Positions 6,370 through 28,267 of a stretch of 48,726 bases of DNA are shown here, in pieces. The DNA comes from Leptolyngbya sp. 'hensonii'. GTDB taxonomy: Bacteria > Cyanobacteriota > Cyanobacteriia > GCF-001939115. Under the pieces are notes generated by a model. The model was not told where the DNA came from. It was given only the letters and a program-made list of their open reading frames with translations, and searched no databases. Numbering within the stretch: position 1 is the first letter of the stretch; every line of letters starts with the position of its first letter. The stretch covers positions 26,275-75,000 of the forward strand of contig NZ_MQTZ01000028.1 of the NCBI RefSeq assembly GCF_001939115.1, given 5' to 3'. Made by a program: the position numbers and the translations under genes.

Positions 6370-7731
6370 TCAGGGTTTGGGTTGTTGACAGGGGAGTATT
6401 ACTTGTAACCAGGCTCCTCCAGTTTCAGGATGATTACCCGCTGTCACCGATCCCCGATGGGCCTCGACAATTTGCCGCACGATCGCCAGCCCCAACCCAC
6501 TGCCCCCACCGACCTGTAAATTCGGCAGGTACTCGTCGGTTTTGAGGGTTTTGTCTTCCTGGCGGGCAATGGGGGAGGTTCCTGACAGACTGCGAGAACG
6601 GGAGGGCTCGACCCGGTAGAAGCGTTCAAAGACATAGGGCAGGGCGCTTTCAGGAAACCCTGATCCCGCATCAATCACCTCCAGGCGAACCTTCGGTTCT
6701 GCTGAGTCGGTCTCCCGGATTGGGGTTGCCTGCACCCTGATCCATTGGCGCTCCGGGCTGTATTTGATGCTGTTATCTAGTAGGTTGAAGAGTACCCGAT
6801 ACAGTCTTGCTTCGTCTGCCTCGATCAGAAGTTGCTCTGGTCCCACATAATCCAGTTGAATATTTTTCCCTTTGGCCAGGGGTTCTAGGCTGGTCCAGGT
6901 GGCCTGAATTAATTTTGGCAGGTCAATGCGCTGGAAATTGAGACTGTAGGATGTTCCCATCTCAATCTGACTCAAATCCAGTAAGTCTTGAACCAGGGTG
7001 CTTAGGCGCAGGGTTTCATTCAGCAACCGATCGATCCACTGACGCAGGGGGGGCTCCAGTCGGGATTGTAGGGTTTCGGCGACCAGACGGATAGACGTGA
7101 GGGGGGTCTTCAGCTCATGGGCGACATCCGAGGTCCAGCGATCACGCTGCAGCAGCAAGGTGGCTGCTTCCTGGCGGTTTTCCAGAAATACTCCGATGTA
7201 ACCATTTGCCATGGGAAAGCAGTACCCGCGCAGCGGTCGAGGTTGCTGTCGGGCCAGTTCTGCCGAATCGGCACTGACAGGGTGAAAGATCCATTCAGCC
7301 TGACAGGGCTTTTGGCGATCGCGGGCCTGTTCAATCAGGTGATCGAGTTCATAAGACCGGACGACTTCCAGGAGCAGGCGTAGACGGGATGGTTTGCTGT
7401 AGTCGATATTCAGCAACTGGCAGGCTTGGGCGTTGCAGGAAACCAACTGGTTTTCATCATCAACTTGTAAATAGCCGATTGGGGCGACTTGCAGTAACTG
7501 TTTCAGGCCAACCAGTTCCAGTTCTACGTCATAGAGATGTTGATGCTGCCAGTTGGCCGCCATAGCCAGACGCAGGAGCTCAGGCAGGGAAGCTGAAGAG
7601 ATCTGAGTCTCTATTCTGGGTAATAAAATTTTGAAAGTGCGGTTAATGTAAGCTCGCTGCAGCATCAGCAAGCCCAGACCAATCCCCAGACCAATCAGAA
7701 AAGTCAGGATTTCCACGACGATCCAATGCAA
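6370..7731 (-). CDS. sphS: phosphate-sensing histidine kinase, SphS/PhoR type
   Basis: SphS senses phosphate starvation and phosphorylates SphR, which turns on the cyanobacterial Pho regulon. The order is: an N-terminal hydrophobic segment (about residues 6-24, needed for sensing in SphS), a PAS-like region (about 75-130, APIGYLQVDDENQLVSCN), HisKA with phospho-acceptor His205 in SDVAHELKTPLTS, then HATPase with the N-box NLLDNSIKYSPE, DAGSGFP and GGGSGLGLAI. All catalytic boxes are intact. The start is a TTG at 7731; a stop lies just upstream and a GTG at 7716 is the alternative. No sphR or phoU lies beside it, so the name rests on architecture. Confidence 0.82.
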   Translation of the reverse strand: MHWIVVEILTFLIGLGIGLGLLMLQRAYINRTFKILLPRIETQISSASLPELLRLAMAANWQHQHLYDVELELVGLKQLLQVAPIGYLQVDDENQLVSCNAQACQLLNIDYSKPSRLRLLLEVVRSYELDHLIEQARDRQKPCQAEWIFHPVSADSAELARQQPRPLRGYCFPMANGYIGVFLENRQEAATLLLQRDRWTSDVAHELKTPLTSIRLVAETLQSRLEPPLRQWIDRLLNETLRLSTLVQDLLDLSQIEMGTSYSLNFQRIDLPKLIQATWTSLEPLAKGKNIQLDYVGPEQLLIEADEARLYRVLFNLLDNSIKYSPERQWIRVQATPIRETDSAEPKVRLEVIDAGSGFPESALPYVFERFYRVEPSRSRSLSGTSPIARQEDKTLKTDEYLPNLQVGGGSGLGLAIVRQIVEAHRGSVTAGNHPETGGAWLQVILPCQQPKP

Positions 7732-20840: not shown

Positions 20841-21596
20841 TTACTTGCGACGATAAGGAACGGAAGTCATATAGTCGATATTGGAGGCTGCAATCCGCTG
20901 GGGCGGATTGACTTTCGGACCAATGCCCCGGGCCATATCGAGGAACAGTGCAGGATTCCCTGCTTTGGGCTGTTTGTCTTGAGGAACATAGGTGCGGACT
21001 GTGGTTTGCCAGATGACCTGTGGGAAACCCAGCTTGCCACGGTAGTAATCATCATAGCGAGGAGACTTGATGTTAAAAGGCAGTTCCCCCTCAGAACGAC
21101 CGGGTAACACCCGACGACGCTGGTAGGGGACGGTGTCATAGCCAAAAGCTTCCAGATACTCTTCGCTGTTGAGCAGGTCATCAATAAAGCCTTTGGACCC
21201 TTTGGTTGCGACTACGATCGACCAGGCGATCTTTTCCCGCTGATTGTAGATGTCACGCCCGAGCACCCGCTGTACCGTTTGCTCGACATAGCGATAGTTG
21301 CTATTGAGGTCGTAGAAACTGCGCTTGTAGGTATTGGACAGCAACAAGCCGCGAATGAAATCTCTGACAGTGATTTGGCCGCTCCGCAGTTGGGACTCCA
21401 GGTACTTCTCCCGATCGGCTGCAAAGGCATGGAAGAAAATCTGACGATAAGCCGCTTCGATCAGATTATCCATATCTGTTGCGGAGAGCAGGTTATCTGT
21501 GGAATAAACTCTGGGCTGCTCATCACCAAAAACTTCAAAACCAGTAACCCGTTGGTTCTGGCTAGTGGGGGAATAGTCTAAAAGAGGAATTGCCAC
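20841..21596 (-). CDS. cpcG: phycobilisome rod-core linker CpcG
   Basis: CpcG joins phycocyanin rods to the allophycocyanin core. The 251-aa protein starts with the characteristic [16 protein letters not shown] and holds one PBS-linker domain (about residues 18-148, with [50 protein letters not shown] and [18 protein letters not shown]). The C-terminal part is soluble, so this is the core-attaching CpcG1 type and not the membrane CpcL type next door. Two L boxes lie 150 and 198 bp upstream, implying control by light colour. A 16-bp-stem terminator separates it from cpcL. Confidence 0.96.
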
Positions 21597-21745
21597 GCCT
21601 ACAAAAACTCCCTTTTCTTACGAAATCTTACAAATTTAATCCCAATCATAAGGGACAAGGGACCCATTATTCGATGTAGTCTGATAAAAGTTACATAACT
21701 TAACTTGGCAGTTAAGCATGCCGAAATTCAGTCTAGGCAAACTTT

Positions 21746-21763
21746 TGGCACAATATTTGCACA
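21746..21763 (+). promoter_or_regulatory. L box-like site 1 (RcaC type), one mismatch
   Basis: Reads TGGCACA-ATAT-TTGCACA, one base off the L box TTGCACA-N4-TTGCACA bound by the response regulator RcaC in Fremyella diplosiphon. It lies 150 bp upstream of the cpcG start, on the strand opposite to cpcG. Together with site 2 it forms a direct repeat with an 18-bp identical core (21748-21765 and 21796-21813), 48 bp apart. Confidence 0.7.
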
Positions 21764-21793
21764 ATCAAAATGTACTTCGGCAGTCTATGGCTC

Positions 21794-21811
21794 TTGCACA
21801 ATATTTGCACA
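21794..21811 (+). promoter_or_regulatory. L box site 2 (RcaC type), exact match
   Basis: TTGCACA-ATAT-TTGCACA matches the L box consensus at all 14 defined positions, with the same N4 spacer as site 1. It lies 198 bp upstream of cpcG in the non-coding gap between cpcG and cpcL. RcaC is an OmpR-class regulator of chromatic acclimation; that link is from the literature, not from this window, which contains no rca gene. Confidence 0.8.
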
Positions 21812-21966
21812 ATTCTGGTGAATGAGTTAAATAACTTCAAGATTGGATCCGGATGGGTAAGGATGGTCATTCTTGGCCTTGCAGGGGGCTCAAAATAGAT
21901 CGCTTTGGGGCAGGTGATTTGGAGAGATCCCATCATCTCACAGACTTCAGAGCAATCGGGCTAAAG

Positions 21967-22014
21967 ACAATGCAGGAAACAGCACCGGCGGTTGGAGTCT
22001 GTTTCCTGCATTGT
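21967..22014 (-). terminator. strong stem-loop after cpcL
   Basis: ACAATGCAGGAAACAG (21967-21982) and CTGTTTCCTGCATTGT (21999-22014) form a perfect 16-bp stem with a 16-base loop, 38 bp past the cpcL stop. A short T-rich tail is present on both strands. It should isolate cpcL transcription from the L-box-bearing cpcG control region. Confidence 0.85.
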
Positions 22015-22052
22015 TTTAAGTCAATGGGCTCAATCGATTAGGTTGGGAACGG

Positions 22053-22811
22053 CTATCCAACTGAACTGCTGGCAGTGGTCGCAAGGGTGAGTGAGAAAGC
22101 AATCAAAATAAATAGGACGATAAAGAGTCCGGCAGTAACCGGCCAGTTAGCCCGACGGATAAAGGTGTCGAAGTCAAAAGGCTCAAACTGTCCAAACAGG
22201 CCATCAGCTCTGCCTGAACCGAACAGCCAGCCAGTACGGGGCAACTGATCGCGGTAGTCTGTGCCGTAGCGGGCCATCCGCTCAAAGGGTAATTCCCCCT
22301 GAGACCGGTTGGCAAGGGTCCGCCGTTGCTGGTAGGGAACCGTATGGTCCCCAAAGCGGTTCATGTACTCTTCGCTATTTAGTAACGTGTCGATGAACCC
22401 TGGTAGACCCTGGGTGGCCAGCACAATCGACCAGGCCATTTTTTCCCGATCGCTATACACTTTCCGGCCCAGAATTCGAGGTACACAGAGTTCTACAAAA
22501 CGGTAGTTGTTATTGACATCATAATTGAGCCGTCGAAAGGCATCGGATGTGGCTAAGCCTCGAATAAATGCCTTCACGGTGATTTGCCCCGATTTGAGCT
22601 GAGATTCCAGCAGGGTTTGGCGATGGTGGGACAGCATTTGTTGTTCGTGGAAGACCTGACGATAAGCGGATCCAATCAATGCATCCATCTCATCTGCTGA
22701 GAGCAGAACCTCAGTGTTGTGTACCCTGGGCTGGTCATCTCCTGGCACTTCAAAGCCAGCTACGCGCTGGTTTTGTGCAGAGGGAGAGTACTCTAGCAAA
22801 GGAATAGGCAT
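22053..22811 (-). CDS. cpcL: membrane-anchored phycobilisome linker CpcL (CpcG2 type)
   Basis: CpcL organises coreless rod-type phycobilisomes that feed photosystem I. The 252-aa protein begins PIPLLEYSPSAQNQRVAGFE and carries a PBS-linker domain (about residues 18-150), like CpcG. It ends in a hydrophobic segment (about 225-245, TAGLFIVLFILIAFSLTLA) that anchors it in the thylakoid. This tail is the defining feature of CpcL. It lies upstream of cpcG on the same strand, behind its own terminator. I found no CcaR G-box (CTTTNCNATTT) in its 226-bp upstream gap, though a diverged one could be missed. Confidence 0.95.
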   Translation of the reverse strand: MPIPLLEYSPSAQNQRVAGFEVPGDDQPRVHNTEVLLSADEMDALIGSAYRQVFHEQQMLSHHRQTLLESQLKSGQITVKAFIRGLATSDAFRRLNYDVNNNYRFVELCVPRILGRKVYSDREKMAWSIVLATQGLPGFIDTLLNSEEYMNRFGDHTVPYQQRRTLANRSQGELPFERMARYGTDYRDQLPRTGWLFGSGRADGLFGQFEPFDFDTFIRRANWPVTAGLFIVLFILIAFSLTLATTASSSVG

Positions 22812-23037: not shown

Positions 23038-23613
23038 TTAATTTGTAATAGTCGATCGCCAGTCTCTGCTCTCTCCCCGCCAGAAGGACAGCGGATTTTG
23101 AGTCCGACGACAATGGGGATAAGATTGCAAACGGCTTTCTATGCCTGCTTGCCAGGCAAGGGGTTCAATCTCTAGGCCGAGACACAGATGGGCCAGAGCT
23201 TCAGCAAACTGTTGGTGGTGACCGGGAGAACCTGCATGGGCGTGGGCGTACTCGTGAATGACCAGGGATAGCCAGTCTGCTGGAATGACTCGCCCCACAT
23301 CGATCAGGATGGTGGTTGGTTTGGTTTTCAGGTTACAGAGGCCGTCAATCCCAAAAGCTGGAGAGAGAGGAGCCGCAAAAATTTGTACGGTCCGCTGCTC
23401 CCAGGGATGAAAACAGTCATAACAGGCCTGCAAGCAGAGTTGGAGGAATTCGTTGACAGCGTCAATGTGATCACCAATCCAGGTACAGATAGGCTCACGA
23501 TCGCGGCTGTTGTAGACCATATCCACCATCTCGGGGTCAAGAGCCAGACTGCGGGCACCGTATAGATAATCGAGTCCGCGCGTAAACGGATCGGCACTCG
23601 TTGTAATCAGCAA
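23038..23613 (-). CDS. HExxH-motif protein, putative metallopeptidase
   Basis: A 191-aa protein of unknown function. Residues 120-124 (HEYAH) are a zinc-type HExxH motif inside HEYAHAHAGSPGHHQQF, giving further His at 126, 132 and 133 that could complete a metal site. The motif follows a hydrophobic strand (WLSLVI), as in zincin helices. There is no signal peptide, so it would act in the cytoplasm. It starts one base from the end of cpcS, on the same strand, so it is very likely co-transcribed with that lyase gene. A role in phycobilisome processing is only inference from position. I cannot assign a peptidase family. Confidence 0.78.
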   Translation of the reverse strand: MLITTSADPFTRGLDYLYGARSLALDPEMVDMVYNSRDREPICTWIGDHIDAVNEFLQLCLQACYDCFHPWEQRTVQIFAAPLSPAFGIDGLCNLKTKPTTILIDVGRVIPADWLSLVIHEYAHAHAGSPGHHQQFAEALAHLCLGLEIEPLAWQAGIESRLQSYPHCRRTQNPLSFWRGESRDWRSTITN

Positions 23614-23614
23614 T

Positions 23615-24247
23615 TTACCAACCTAGGAAAGAAAAGTATTGTGTGGGATTTCCTGTTGCCCCGATTGCAGGGGAAGACGGAGGTGCTGTTTCAGCAGGAG
23701 TCAGGCTGGAGGGCAGACCTGAACTCTCTTCAATCCGAATTTCTGTGCAGAAGGTGGCGGTACTGAACCCCCCAAACCGCTTTACGGTGCTGGTTCGCAA
23801 CCGGAGATTGGGACTGGCAAACCAGAAGCGCTCGATCGAGCTGGTGGTTTCGTATTCTGTGGTCAAAATCAGGCCGTCTTCATCGTCCATCTGATATTGC
23901 CCAATCACAGGCACAATCTCGGCGTAGCCCCGCTCGCGCAGCAGCTTTCCCTGGCGGGGGTGCTCAGCGTCCGGAACCAGGACAAAAATGGTGGAACCGT
24001 CGTGGCTATCTTCTTCCCTGTCCCAGCCCATGGAGCCCTGCCAGGAAACAAAAGCCCCGCCAATGGCCAAACTTGGATCAACGTCATGGAGCTGACAGAT
24101 TTCCAGGATTTGAGGGTGATCAGCAGCCAGGGCCTCGATCTGAATTTCGGAAGCACCCGGTTCAGAGCGTTTGAAGGCCAAATGATGCGTGGTGCGGTGC
24201 GATCGCCACTTGCCTGTGCTGACTTGAAAAAACTCCATTACATCCAT
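23615..24247 (-). CDS. cpcS: CpcS/CpeS-family phycobiliprotein lyase
   Basis: S-type lyases attach bilin to Cys-82-equivalent residues of phycobiliproteins. The 210-aa protein opens MDVMEFFQVSTGKWRSHRTTHHLAF, the family signature, and keeps VDPSLAIGGAFVSWQG, GYAEIVPVIGQYQMDDEDGLIL, TEYETTSSIERFWFASPNLRLRTSTV and GFSTATFCTEIR. A Pro/Ser-rich tail of about 35 residues extends the usual end. The frame opens 13 codons earlier, but the ATG at 24247 gives the normal N-terminus. It could be a CpcS or a CpeS; both share this pattern, and neighbouring cpeBA makes a phycoerythrin substrate possible. It is divergent from nblA. Confidence 0.88.
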   Translation of the reverse strand: MDVMEFFQVSTGKWRSHRTTHHLAFKRSEPGASEIQIEALAADHPQILEICQLHDVDPSLAIGGAFVSWQGSMGWDREEDSHDGSTIFVLVPDAEHPRQGKLLRERGYAEIVPVIGQYQMDDEDGLILTTEYETTSSIERFWFASPNLRLRTSTVKRFGGFSTATFCTEIRIEESSGLPSSLTPAETAPPSSPAIGATGNPTQYFSFLGW

Positions 24248-24316
24248 AGCTGACAACGCTGACTCCTCCCAAGACAATAGGGGCAAAAAATGCAGTTCTT
24301 TCCATCATAAAACCCC

Positions 24317-24339: not shown

Positions 24340-24461
24340 TTGATCTGGCTTTATTCGCAAACGTCTAAAACCGTCTACTTGTCAAGCTTGAGTTACTTTT
24401 ATTAATATATAAAGCAAGACAAGGAATGAGATCAAATTGCATCAACCGGGGAGTGGACGCA

Positions 24462-24632
24462 ATGGAACTGCCATTAGAGCTCAGCATGGAGCAAAAGTTT
24501 AATCTCAAGGTCTACGAAGAGCAGATCAAGGGATTGAGTCCAGAGCAATCCCAGGAATTTCTGTTGGAGGTTTTACGCCAGTTGATGATCAAAGAAAATG
24601 TGATCAGACATCTGATGAAACAGACCTACTAG
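24462..24632 (+). CDS. nblA: phycobilisome degradation protein NblA
   Basis: NblA is the small adaptor that binds phycobiliproteins and the Clp protease so that antennae are dismantled under nutrient stress. The 56-aa product MELPLELSMEQKFNLKVYEE ... QEFLLEVLRQLMIKEN has the diagnostic N-terminus, the helix pair and the conserved LLEVLRQLMIKENVIRHLM segment. An upstream in-frame ATG at 24426 adds 12 residues unlike the family, so I start at 24462. It lies directly before cpeBA on the same strand, with an L-box-like site just after the stop and a terminator 210 bp further on. Confidence 0.95.
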   Translation: MELPLELSMEQKFNLKVYEEQIKGLSPEQSQEFLLEVLRQLMIKENVIRHLMKQTY

Positions 24633-24636
24633 GTGT

Positions 24637-24654
24637 TTGCACATCTTCTGCACA
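24637..24654 (+). promoter_or_regulatory. L box-like site 3 between nblA and cpeB
   Basis: TTGCACA-TCTT-CTGCACA differs from the L box consensus at one position and keeps the N4 spacing. It starts 5 bp after the nblA stop and about 360 bp before cpeB. It is the only other such element I saw in the window, and it falls in the same pigment gene cluster. Confidence 0.6.
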
Positions 24655-24981: not shown

Positions 24982-25569
<588 letters not shown>

Positions 25570-25633: not shown

Positions 25634-26131
<498 letters not shown>

Positions 26132-26258: not shown

Positions 26259-26368
26259 TTTTTGGTGACAGATAGTAACCCACAGATGTTTCGAAGCAGG
26301 TTTTACAATTGACTGGCGGATGGGGTTATGCCATCTCCGTTCAACCTGTCCCTGCGCCAACCTGTTTT

Positions 26369-27646
26369 ATGGATAAACGTTTTTCTAATCTTTTCAATCT
26401 GACTGAAGAACAGGCGATCGCCTTGTTAGATACCCCCCAGGACCAGATCGGCGAAGAGGATTCCCGCTACATCGCTGCATCTCACCTGGTTAATTTTCCT
26501 ACGGAGCCATCGATCAATGCACTGATGCGGGCGGTGCAGCAAACGGACCCGGTATTGGATAACCGAATTGTGCGCCGGAAGTCTGTCGAGACCCTGGGAC
26601 GGTTAAAAGCGGTGCAGGCCCTGCCGATCATCGTTGCCTGTTTGGGGGACGGGGACTGCTACACGGTGGAAAATGCGGTTTGGGCGATCGGAGAGATCGG
26701 AACGCAGGACCCCGTTATTCTGGAAGCAGTGGCTCAATTACTGGATAAGCCAGGGCAAACCTATCGAGTCATTATCCATACCCTGGCCAAGTTGAATTAT
26801 CAACCAGCACTGGAACGGATTCGCCGCTTTGTGCAGGACAGTGACCCGCCCACGGCCAGTGCTGCCATTACTACCGTTTGCCGGTTTACCCGGGATGACG
26901 CCCAGATGGGGCAGGTGGTGGCTATGCTGCAACATAAGAATGTGCTGGCGCGCCGCTTATCCATCCAGGATCTGATTGACGCTCAATATTATCTGGCGAT
27001 TCCTCAAATTGCCCGCTGCCCGGTGTCTCTGGTTTTCCGTCTGAGGGGAATTCGAATGCTGGCTGAATTGGGGATTCCTGACGGCGCGATCGCCTTTGCA
27101 GAGATTCAACCCCATCTGGAACAGACCCTGCGGGACCATCCCAATGATCTGACTCTGGTGCATGCCTATGACCAGACGCCAACCCTGCCCTTCCTGATCC
27201 GGGAGTTATACGAGACGGATTTTGGTCGCTGTTACCTGGCAACAAAAACGATTCTGGACCATTATCCCGATCAGGCTCCAGCGGCTCTCTTTGCGACCTA
27301 CGACGAAGAAGCGAACAATGACTATGGGGCGCACTTCCATGTGATGAAGCTGTTCGGTTGGCTGCGCCATGCACCGGCCTATGATCTGCTGCTGGAAGCC
27401 CTGCATAATAAACAGCCCCAGTTTCAGAAATCGAGGGCGGCGGCGGCGATCGCCCTGGCTGAATTGGCCAACCCCAGTGCCATCCCGGAGCTACGGGCCT
27501 GCCTGGATAGTAAAATCTGGGATCTAAAATATGCTGCCCTGCTGGCTCTGGAAACTTTGGGGGATACCAGTGGCTACGAGTGGGCGATCAACGATGAAGA
27601 TTGGTTGATTCGGGAAAAGGCCAAGTCACACTTAAAAATGAGTTGA
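26369..27646 (+). CDS. cpeY: CpeY, HEAT-repeat phycoerythrin lyase
   Basis: CpeY belongs to the E/F-type lyase clan; in Fremyella diplosiphon it attaches phycoerythrobilin to alpha-Cys82. The 425-aa protein consists of HEAT/PBS-lyase repeats throughout, for example NRIVRRKSVETLGRLKAVQALPIIVACLGD, NAVWAIGEIG, and near the end SRAAAAIALAELANPSAIPELRACL. I start at the ATG at 26369, giving MDKRFSNLFNLTEEQAIALL; the open frame before it has no family character. cpeZ follows with no gap. The position right after cpeBA agrees with the role. Confidence 0.92.
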   Translation: MDKRFSNLFNLTEEQAIALLDTPQDQIGEEDSRYIAASHLVNFPTEPSINALMRAVQQTDPVLDNRIVRRKSVETLGRLKAVQALPIIVACLGDGDCYTVENAVWAIGEIGTQDPVILEAVAQLLDKPGQTYRVIIHTLAKLNYQPALERIRRFVQDSDPPTASAAITTVCRFTRDDAQMGQVVAMLQHKNVLARRLSIQDLIDAQYYLAIPQIARCPVSLVFRLRGIRMLAELGIPDGAIAFAEIQPHLEQTLRDHPNDLTLVHAYDQTPTLPFLIRELYETDFGRCYLATKTILDHYPDQAPAALFATYDEEANNDYGAHFHVMKLFGWLRHAPAYDLLLEALHNKQPQFQKSRAAAAIALAELANPSAIPELRACLDSKIWDLKYAALLALETLGDTSGYEWAINDEDWLIREKAKSHLKMS

Positions 27647-28267
27647 ATGATGTCTATAGAAGAACTGTTCCAACAACTGAAGCATCCCAATCCGAATTTG
27701 CGGGAACGGGCCATGTGGGAATTGGTGGATGCCCAGGATGAAACGACGATTCCCCGCTTGATGGGCCTGCTGGGAGAGGAGGACACCACCTATCGGCGGG
27801 CAGCAGTGAAGGCTCTGGGGGCGATCGGGGTGGATGCGGTGCCTCCCCTGGTGGAGTCCCTGCTGCAGAGTGACAATGTCACGATTCGGGGGAGCGCGGC
27901 CAAGGCACTGGCCCAGGTGGCTCTGAACTATCCAGACATTCCCTTTCCACCAGAGGGGGTCCAGGGTCTGAAAGCGGCCTTGAACGATGCCAATCCCGTG
28001 GTGCATATTGCGGCGGTGATGGCCCTGGGAGAGATTGGGACGCCTGTGGTGGATGTGCTCATTGAGGGGCTGCAAGCGACGGATAATCCGGCTCTGGCGG
28101 TGTCGATCGTGAATGCCCTGGGGTCGATCGGAGATAGTCGGGGGGTGGATGTGCTCACGGCCCTGATTCAGGATGAGGCGACTGATTCCTATGTGCGTGA
28201 GTCAGCCACCAGTGCCCTGTCCCGTCTGGAAATGACCGTGAAATTCAAACGCGGTGAACCTGCGTAA
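27647..28267 (+). CDS. cpeZ: CpeZ, HEAT-repeat lyase partner/chaperone
   Basis: CpeZ works with CpeY and acts as a lyase partner or chaperone for phycoerythrin maturation. The 206-aa protein is built of five or six short HEAT repeats (RERAMWELVDA, YRRAAVKALGAIG, IRGSAAKALAQV, VHIAAVMALGEIG, ALAVSIVNALGSIG, VRESATSALSRL). It starts at once after the cpeY stop (TGA-ATG-ATG), so the pair is translationally linked; the second ATG at 27650 is an alternative start. The order cpeBA-cpeY-cpeZ is that of known phycoerythrin operons. Confidence 0.92.
   Translation: MMSIEELFQQLKHPNPNLRERAMWELVDAQDETTIPRLMGLLGEEDTTYRRAAVKALGAIGVDAVPPLVESLLQSDNVTIRGSAAKALAQVALNYPDIPFPPEGVQGLKAALNDANPVVHIAAVMALGEIGTPVVDVLIEGLQATDNPALAVSIVNALGSIGDSRGVDVLTALIQDEATDSYVRESATSALSRLEMTVKFKRGEPA

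Follow-up and report, generated by a model that had tools for sequence, protein, structure and literature searches.

Paired, backward-facing L boxes before the rod-core linker gene cpcG1 of Leptolyngbya sp. 'hensonii' and their possible role in RcaC-dependent repression in red light

Does the light-colour regulator RcaC act on a rod-core linker gene in Leptolyngbya sp. 'hensonii', and would it switch this gene on or off? The question is raised by two sequences upstream of cpcG1 in the window analysed here, that is, the whole stretch of 48,726 nucleotides from contig NZ_MQTZ01000028.1 (positions 26,275 to 75,000 of the forward strand). In Fremyella diplosiphon, RcaC reportedly binds TTGCACA-N4-TTGCACA and controls pigment genes by light colour, and we take this consensus to be the RcaC L box. 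A pattern search of the window found both sequences exactly where an earlier note on this DNA had placed them, on the same strand and 48 bp apart from start to start; the copy at 21794 is an exact direct repeat and the copy at 21746 has a single mismatch (TGGCACA). These two sites and the genes around them are as follows, with scores from a position weight matrix (PWM) built from the sites of relatives.

20841 to 21596, minus strand: cpcG1, rod-core linker without a membrane helix (PF00427 and CpcG family matches)
21594 to 21705, minus strand: proximal promoter/leader block of cpcG1, conserved in an alignment of 19 cpcG1 upstream regions
21645 to 21650, minus strand: probable -10 element of cpcG1, TATGAT (TATAAT in locus L058), assigned from conservation in the alignment
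21746 to 21763, plus strand: L box 2, TGGCACAATATTTGCACA, one mismatch, reverse relative to cpcG1, PWM score 22.2
21794 to 21811, plus strand: L box 1, TTGCACAATATTTGCACA, exact, reverse relative to cpcG1, PWM score 28.8
21969 to 22012, minus strand: hairpin after cpcL with perfect 14-bp arms (arms and fold)
22053 to 22811, minus strand: cpcL-type linker gene, the upstream neighbour of cpcG1 (PF00427, C-terminal hydrophobic helix)
23615 to 24286, minus strand: cpeS-type bilin lyase gene (PF09367)
24456 to 24632, plus strand: nblA (PF04485)
24637 to 24654, plus strand: possible third L box, TTGCACATCTTCTGCACA, one mismatch, forward relative to cpeB, without an activator -10, weak when taken alone
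25015 to 25569, plus strand: cpeB, phycoerythrin beta (NF058508 above cut-off)
25637 to 26131, plus strand: cpeA, phycoerythrin alpha (NF058506 above cut-off)
26309 to 28267, plus strand: cpeY (NF058505 above cut-off) and a cpeZ-like lyase gene, the latter named from position and HEAT-repeat lyase similarity only

The region around cpcG1 is a phycoerythrin cluster, with cpeS, nblA, cpeBA, cpeY and cpeZ. It also codes for a protein without a Pfam family (23038-23613), an uncharacterised companion of the phycoerythrin cluster. In dozens of cyanobacterial loci its gene keeps its place, with cpeS on one side and cpcG1 (or cpcL) on the other. Both L boxes lie 150-215 bp upstream of the GTG start codon of cpcG1 and point away from the gene, and 242 bp separate them from the 3' end of cpcL. 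As both have ATAT as spacer and AAT as flank, the pair may have arisen by local duplication. The hairpin after cpcL has no T-run, and by this criterion no textbook terminator is present after the gene; it nevertheless likely separates the transcription of cpcL from that of cpcG1, and due to its perfect 14-bp arms we consider that cpcG1 probably has its own transcript. Because of this hairpin, and because the next gene on the plus strand, nblA, starts only at 24456, cpcG1 is the only plausible target of the two boxes. In the alignment of the 19 upstream regions, conservation is confined to a block that covers the last 110 bp or so ahead of the cpcG1 start codon, and the boxes lie immediately upstream of this block. 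A scan of 21500-22100 for sigma-70 consensus promoters returned no promoter-like site, and the -10 was therefore assigned from conservation. It implies a start site near 21638, which would place the boxes at about -108 to -125 and -156 to -173, the nearer of them about 72 bp before the expected -35.

To judge these matches against chance, we used the whole genome assembly (5.94 Mb, 99.98% complete). It contains three exact L box copies, six with one mismatch and 33 with two mismatches, where a first-order Markov model predicts 0.07, 2.7 and about 50 copies, respectively. The enrichment is thus strong for exact copies, about twofold for copies with one mismatch and absent for those with two. 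Since the number of two-mismatch copies is not above chance, weak matches carry no meaning and weight is placed only on near-perfect copies; within the window alone and with three mismatches allowed, four copies compare with five expected. The reversed pattern gave no copies with zero or one mismatch, a control that is lenient owing to the TGCA content, and the Markov estimate was used in its place. By the same model, about 4e-5 same-strand pairs no more than 60 bp apart are expected in the whole genome, and a chance origin is rejected for the exact copy and for the pair. Of the nine copies with no more than one mismatch, six lie up to 500 bp upstream of phycobilisome genes: the two at cpcG1, the one at cpeB, and the following three.

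Contig C17: L box before cpcB2A2, exact
Contig C17: L box before pcyA, one mismatch
Contig C47: L box between the divergent cpcB3 and cpcG3, exact

A genome-wide scan of this kind could have found the motif at chance frequency across unrelated genes; the copies instead gather at pigment genes and exceed chance, an outcome in favour of the earlier note. The other three copies, each with one mismatch (C2:94966, C5:19846 and C40:1036), matched no pigment gene, fit the 2.7 expected by chance and were set aside; that at C5:19846 lies inside a GGDEF-type open reading frame. For the third set of cpcBA genes (C17:121635-122725), the stretch read contained no L box. The copy at 24637-24654, absent from the earlier note, sits just past the 3' end of nblA, and cpeB starts 360 bp further on; its CTGCACA half is found in real sites (L171, L289, L165), and we give even odds that it would prove a genuine L box.

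The presence of L boxes had led to the inference that this genome has an Rca-type chromatic acclimation system, which an absent RcaC homologue would have contradicted. A search for the three genes found rcaC, rcaF and rcaE in a row, adjoining pcyA and cpcB2A2, both of which carry L boxes, and this inference is thus supported. RcaC (C17:134529-136463) has the domain order REC-DNA-binding-HPt-REC and is 70% identical to its best orthologue; D51 (counted from the MKILLVEDD start) and the HPt histidine are retained, and the recognition helix is nearly invariant among orthologues. RcaE has the domains PAS-GAF-PAS-kinase. The structures nearest to its GAF domain are 7CKV, of RcaE, and 8k9o, and this domain keeps the CL motif of the aligned RcaE. 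Of the features that mark type 3 chromatic acclimation (CA3), in which RcaC is the DNA-binding response regulator, the genome thus holds the RcaE cyanobacteriochrome with RcaF and RcaC, and likewise phycoerythrin genes (cpeBA, in the window) together with inducible phycocyanin genes, two of the three cpcBA sets having activator L boxes. Two further RcaC-like proteins are encoded in the genome at E <= 1e-120, one of them at C59:37934-39760 with 47% identity. A complete CcaSR-type cluster (C17:176467-183489) comprises ccaR, cpeC, cpeD, a small linker gene, cpcL and ccaS and contains a G-box-like repeat, CTTTCCGATTTTTTTCCGGTTT, at position 6563 of this locus. As it exists in addition to rcaEFC, the genome has two separate green/red light systems. 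Control of cpcL or cpcG1 by CcaR was considered and rejected, since no G box (CTTTNCNATTT direct repeat) was found near 21596-22811 with up to four substitutions; one is present at the CcaSR cluster instead. A third CpcL-type linker gene (C45:135578-136366) lies directly 3' of two CP43-like (isiA/pcb) genes.

What RcaC might do at cpcG1 can be approached through the arrangement of L boxes in 25 RcaC-bearing genomes, counting sites with no more than one mismatch. In these genomes, forward L boxes precede cpcBA and pcyA. At every listed cpcB2 (15/15) and cpcB3 (8/8) promoter, the box is forward and TTTAAT or TCTAAT, evidently the -10 element, stands exactly 10 bp beyond it. The arrangement at cpeC is the reverse: in seven genomes, a reverse L box lies 248-264 bp upstream of the start codon. 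A -35 resembling TTGACA/TTGATA follows it at 31-33 bp, or in one case at 21 bp, closer by one helical turn. Phosphorylated RcaC activates red-induced genes and represses green-induced ones, and repressing L boxes have the opposite orientation and a greater distance from the start site (PMC8256508; PMC4633512), with which the forward and reverse pattern in the relatives agrees. This orientation rule, like the boxes, the rcaEFC genes and the clustering at pigment genes, is read directly from the sequences. Neither of the cpcG1 boxes nor the copy at 24637 has the forward orientation with TTTAAT or TCTAAT 10 bp downstream that marks activator sites. The cpcG1 boxes instead share the reverse orientation and the position upstream of the promoter with those at cpeC in the seven genomes, and the guess that their orientation could mean repression thereby gains support. 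They do not keep the distance of 21-33 bp before the -35 seen at cpeC, which is a regularity of the relatives and no established criterion; about 108-125 bp lie between the nearer box and the predicted start site, versus roughly 66-84 bp at cpeC, and repression would therefore need another contact geometry. In one relative (G121, contig C339; position 2339 of L165), cpeB takes the slot after rcaC-pcyA, and its L box is of the activator type, with TTTAAT at the 10-bp spacing; contrary to the textbook scheme, RcaC would here switch phycoerythrin on in red light.

We propose that the two boxes form a doubled, reverse RcaC operator that would repress cpcG1 in red light, so that the linker would be made together with phycoerythrin in green light, and we assign this reading a probability of roughly 0.62. 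Taken separately, it is highly probable that the boxes are an RcaC operator acting on cpcG1 and, if they are, repression in red light is the likely outcome. In red light, RcaE would phosphorylate RcaF and RcaC, and phosphorylated RcaC would occupy both boxes and lower the transcription of cpcG1; meanwhile, it would activate cpcB2A2, pcyA and cpcB3A3 via their forward boxes. In green light, RcaC would be unphosphorylated and the boxes empty, and the CpcG1 linker would be made together with the products of the phycoerythrin genes of the same cluster. We infer here the binding of RcaC, repression, its red-off/green-on sign and the co-operation of the two boxes. In favour of this mechanism, the boxes are reverse, have no activator -10 and lie directly upstream of a promoter block that is conserved in 19 cyanobacteria. 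Against it, boxes at cpcG1 occur in this genome alone among those examined, so that conservation does not back their function, and no reverse L box is present at the rca-linked cpeC of this genome (L031:18076-18380), although the rest of that promoter looks conserved and seven relatives have the box. The wiring of this genome therefore differs from that of its relatives.

Of 390 genomes of the class, 26 have a full-length RcaC (51% identity or more), and 23 of these contain exact L boxes, compared with 38 of the 364 others (Fisher p ~1e-17, only indicative, as related genomes are not independent). Several of these 38 have a shorter RcaC relative adjoining the box, and the true association of RcaC with L boxes is therefore stronger than counted. 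No L box was found within 700 bp upstream of 80 named cpcG loci with two mismatches allowed (over a shorter stretch where the contig begins near the gene), no strong L box at the cpcG1-type genes found in RcaC-bearing genomes, and no tandem pair in any other of the 390 genomes; one genome with RcaC and the same gene order (G076) is without boxes before cpcG1. This genome is the only one in its family and in its order, which leaves no close relative by which to date the duplication. In two relatives, cpeS, cpcG1 and the gene for the protein without a Pfam family directly adjoin rcaE-rcaF-rcaC (Stenomitos frigidus, L042) or rcaF-rcaC (Tildeniella nuda, L046), and in two further loci (L053, L069) cpcG1 is near rca genes; elsewhere, cpcG1 thus belongs to the neighbourhood of the RcaEFC system.

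The main rival to repression is that RcaC activates cpcG1 from upstream in red light, with linker and phycocyanin produced together. At cpcB2, pcyA and cpcB3, RcaC acts as an activator; an upstream position is compatible with activation by OmpR/PhoB regulators, and a pair of sites could allow looping or the recruitment of polymerase from afar. However, the listed cpcBA activator sites are all forward with a -10 ten bases downstream, whereas at cpcG1, a gene located in a phycoerythrin cluster, the boxes are reverse and lie far upstream, and we regard activation as unlikely. It is somewhat less probable still that the boxes bind RcaC without effect on cpcG1, as decoys or as a recent neutral duplication. 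Their restriction to this genome, the common spacer and the position outside the conserved promoter block would fit such an origin, but a random pair is very improbable and the exact copy has been kept where it faces cpcG1 alone. Still less can be said for another regulator of the OmpR/PhoB family with a similar 11-bp repeat, either a stress regulator or an RcaC paralogue, for which the two additional RcaC-like proteins would be candidates: the remaining copies lie at cpcB2, pcyA and cpcB3, classic RcaC targets adjoined by RcaC itself, and the motif is far commoner in genomes with RcaC. Tandem TTGCACATAAATTGCACA runs before non-pigment genes in two genomes would speak for such a regulator (L156 in G179, contig C16, with three half-sites, and L174 in G282, contig C75; one of the genes is phosphate-binding-protein-like), and these runs are perhaps its sites. 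Finally, that the boxes drive a plus-strand promoter, for example of an RNA antisense to cpcL, is scarcely credible. They do face cpcL on the opposite strand in forward orientation, but neither has a -10 at the invariant 10-bp spacing, no promoter-like site was found in 21500-22100 and the next gene on their strand starts only at 24456.

Returning to repression by a doubled RcaC operator, one might speculate that RcaC directly exchanges rod-core linkers by light colour, with cpcG1 off in red light and other linkers remaining. Acclimation would then also alter rod-core attachment, or free phycocyanin rods for CpcL-type, photosystem I-linked antennae; we hold this wider view only tentatively and slightly doubt it. 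The RcaEFC system itself is already known. New are cpcG1 as a target and the doubling of the boxes, of which there is no description in the literature surveyed, a survey that excluded the primary L box papers. CA3 has been described as a change of rod pigment, and in the same literature direct control of a linker is described for CcaSR (types 1, 2 and 7). Should a tandem RcaC operator indeed govern a rod-core linker gene, RcaC control would extend beyond pigment to the attachment of the antenna. The 25 genomes also provide a usable rule, by which a forward box with its -10 would activate and a backward upstream box would repress, and the cpcG1 promoter offers a compact testbed for the position and orientation of RcaC sites.

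Compared with the CA3 systems of F. diplosiphon and Synechococcus PCC 7335, the sensor, the two response regulators, the gene order beside pcyA and cpcB2A2 and the L boxes at those promoters are alike, whereas in this genome a tandem reverse L box would make cpcG1 a further target and the rca-linked cpeC is without a box. The closest parallel to the cpcG1 boxes is the repressing class of reverse L boxes at cpeC in relatives and at pebAB in PCC 7335, which also lie backward and upstream of the promoter of a green-light antenna gene; there, a single box is present rather than two, while here the distance to the promoter is about 40 bp greater and the gene codes for a rod-core linker. The L box between the divergent cpcB3 and cpcG3, found on contig C47 of this genome and in G144, G137, G014, G076 and G108, is likewise near a cpcG gene and backward to it, but is a cpcB3 activator site with its own -10, whereas the boxes in the window face cpcG1 alone. 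Control of cpcL or phycoerythrin by CcaS-CcaR (types 1, 2 and 7) resembles the proposed mechanism in placing a linker of the CpcG/CpcL family under green/red control; it does so through a different regulator, with the G box as its DNA site, and in this genome it has a separate cluster of its own at 176-183 kb of contig C17.
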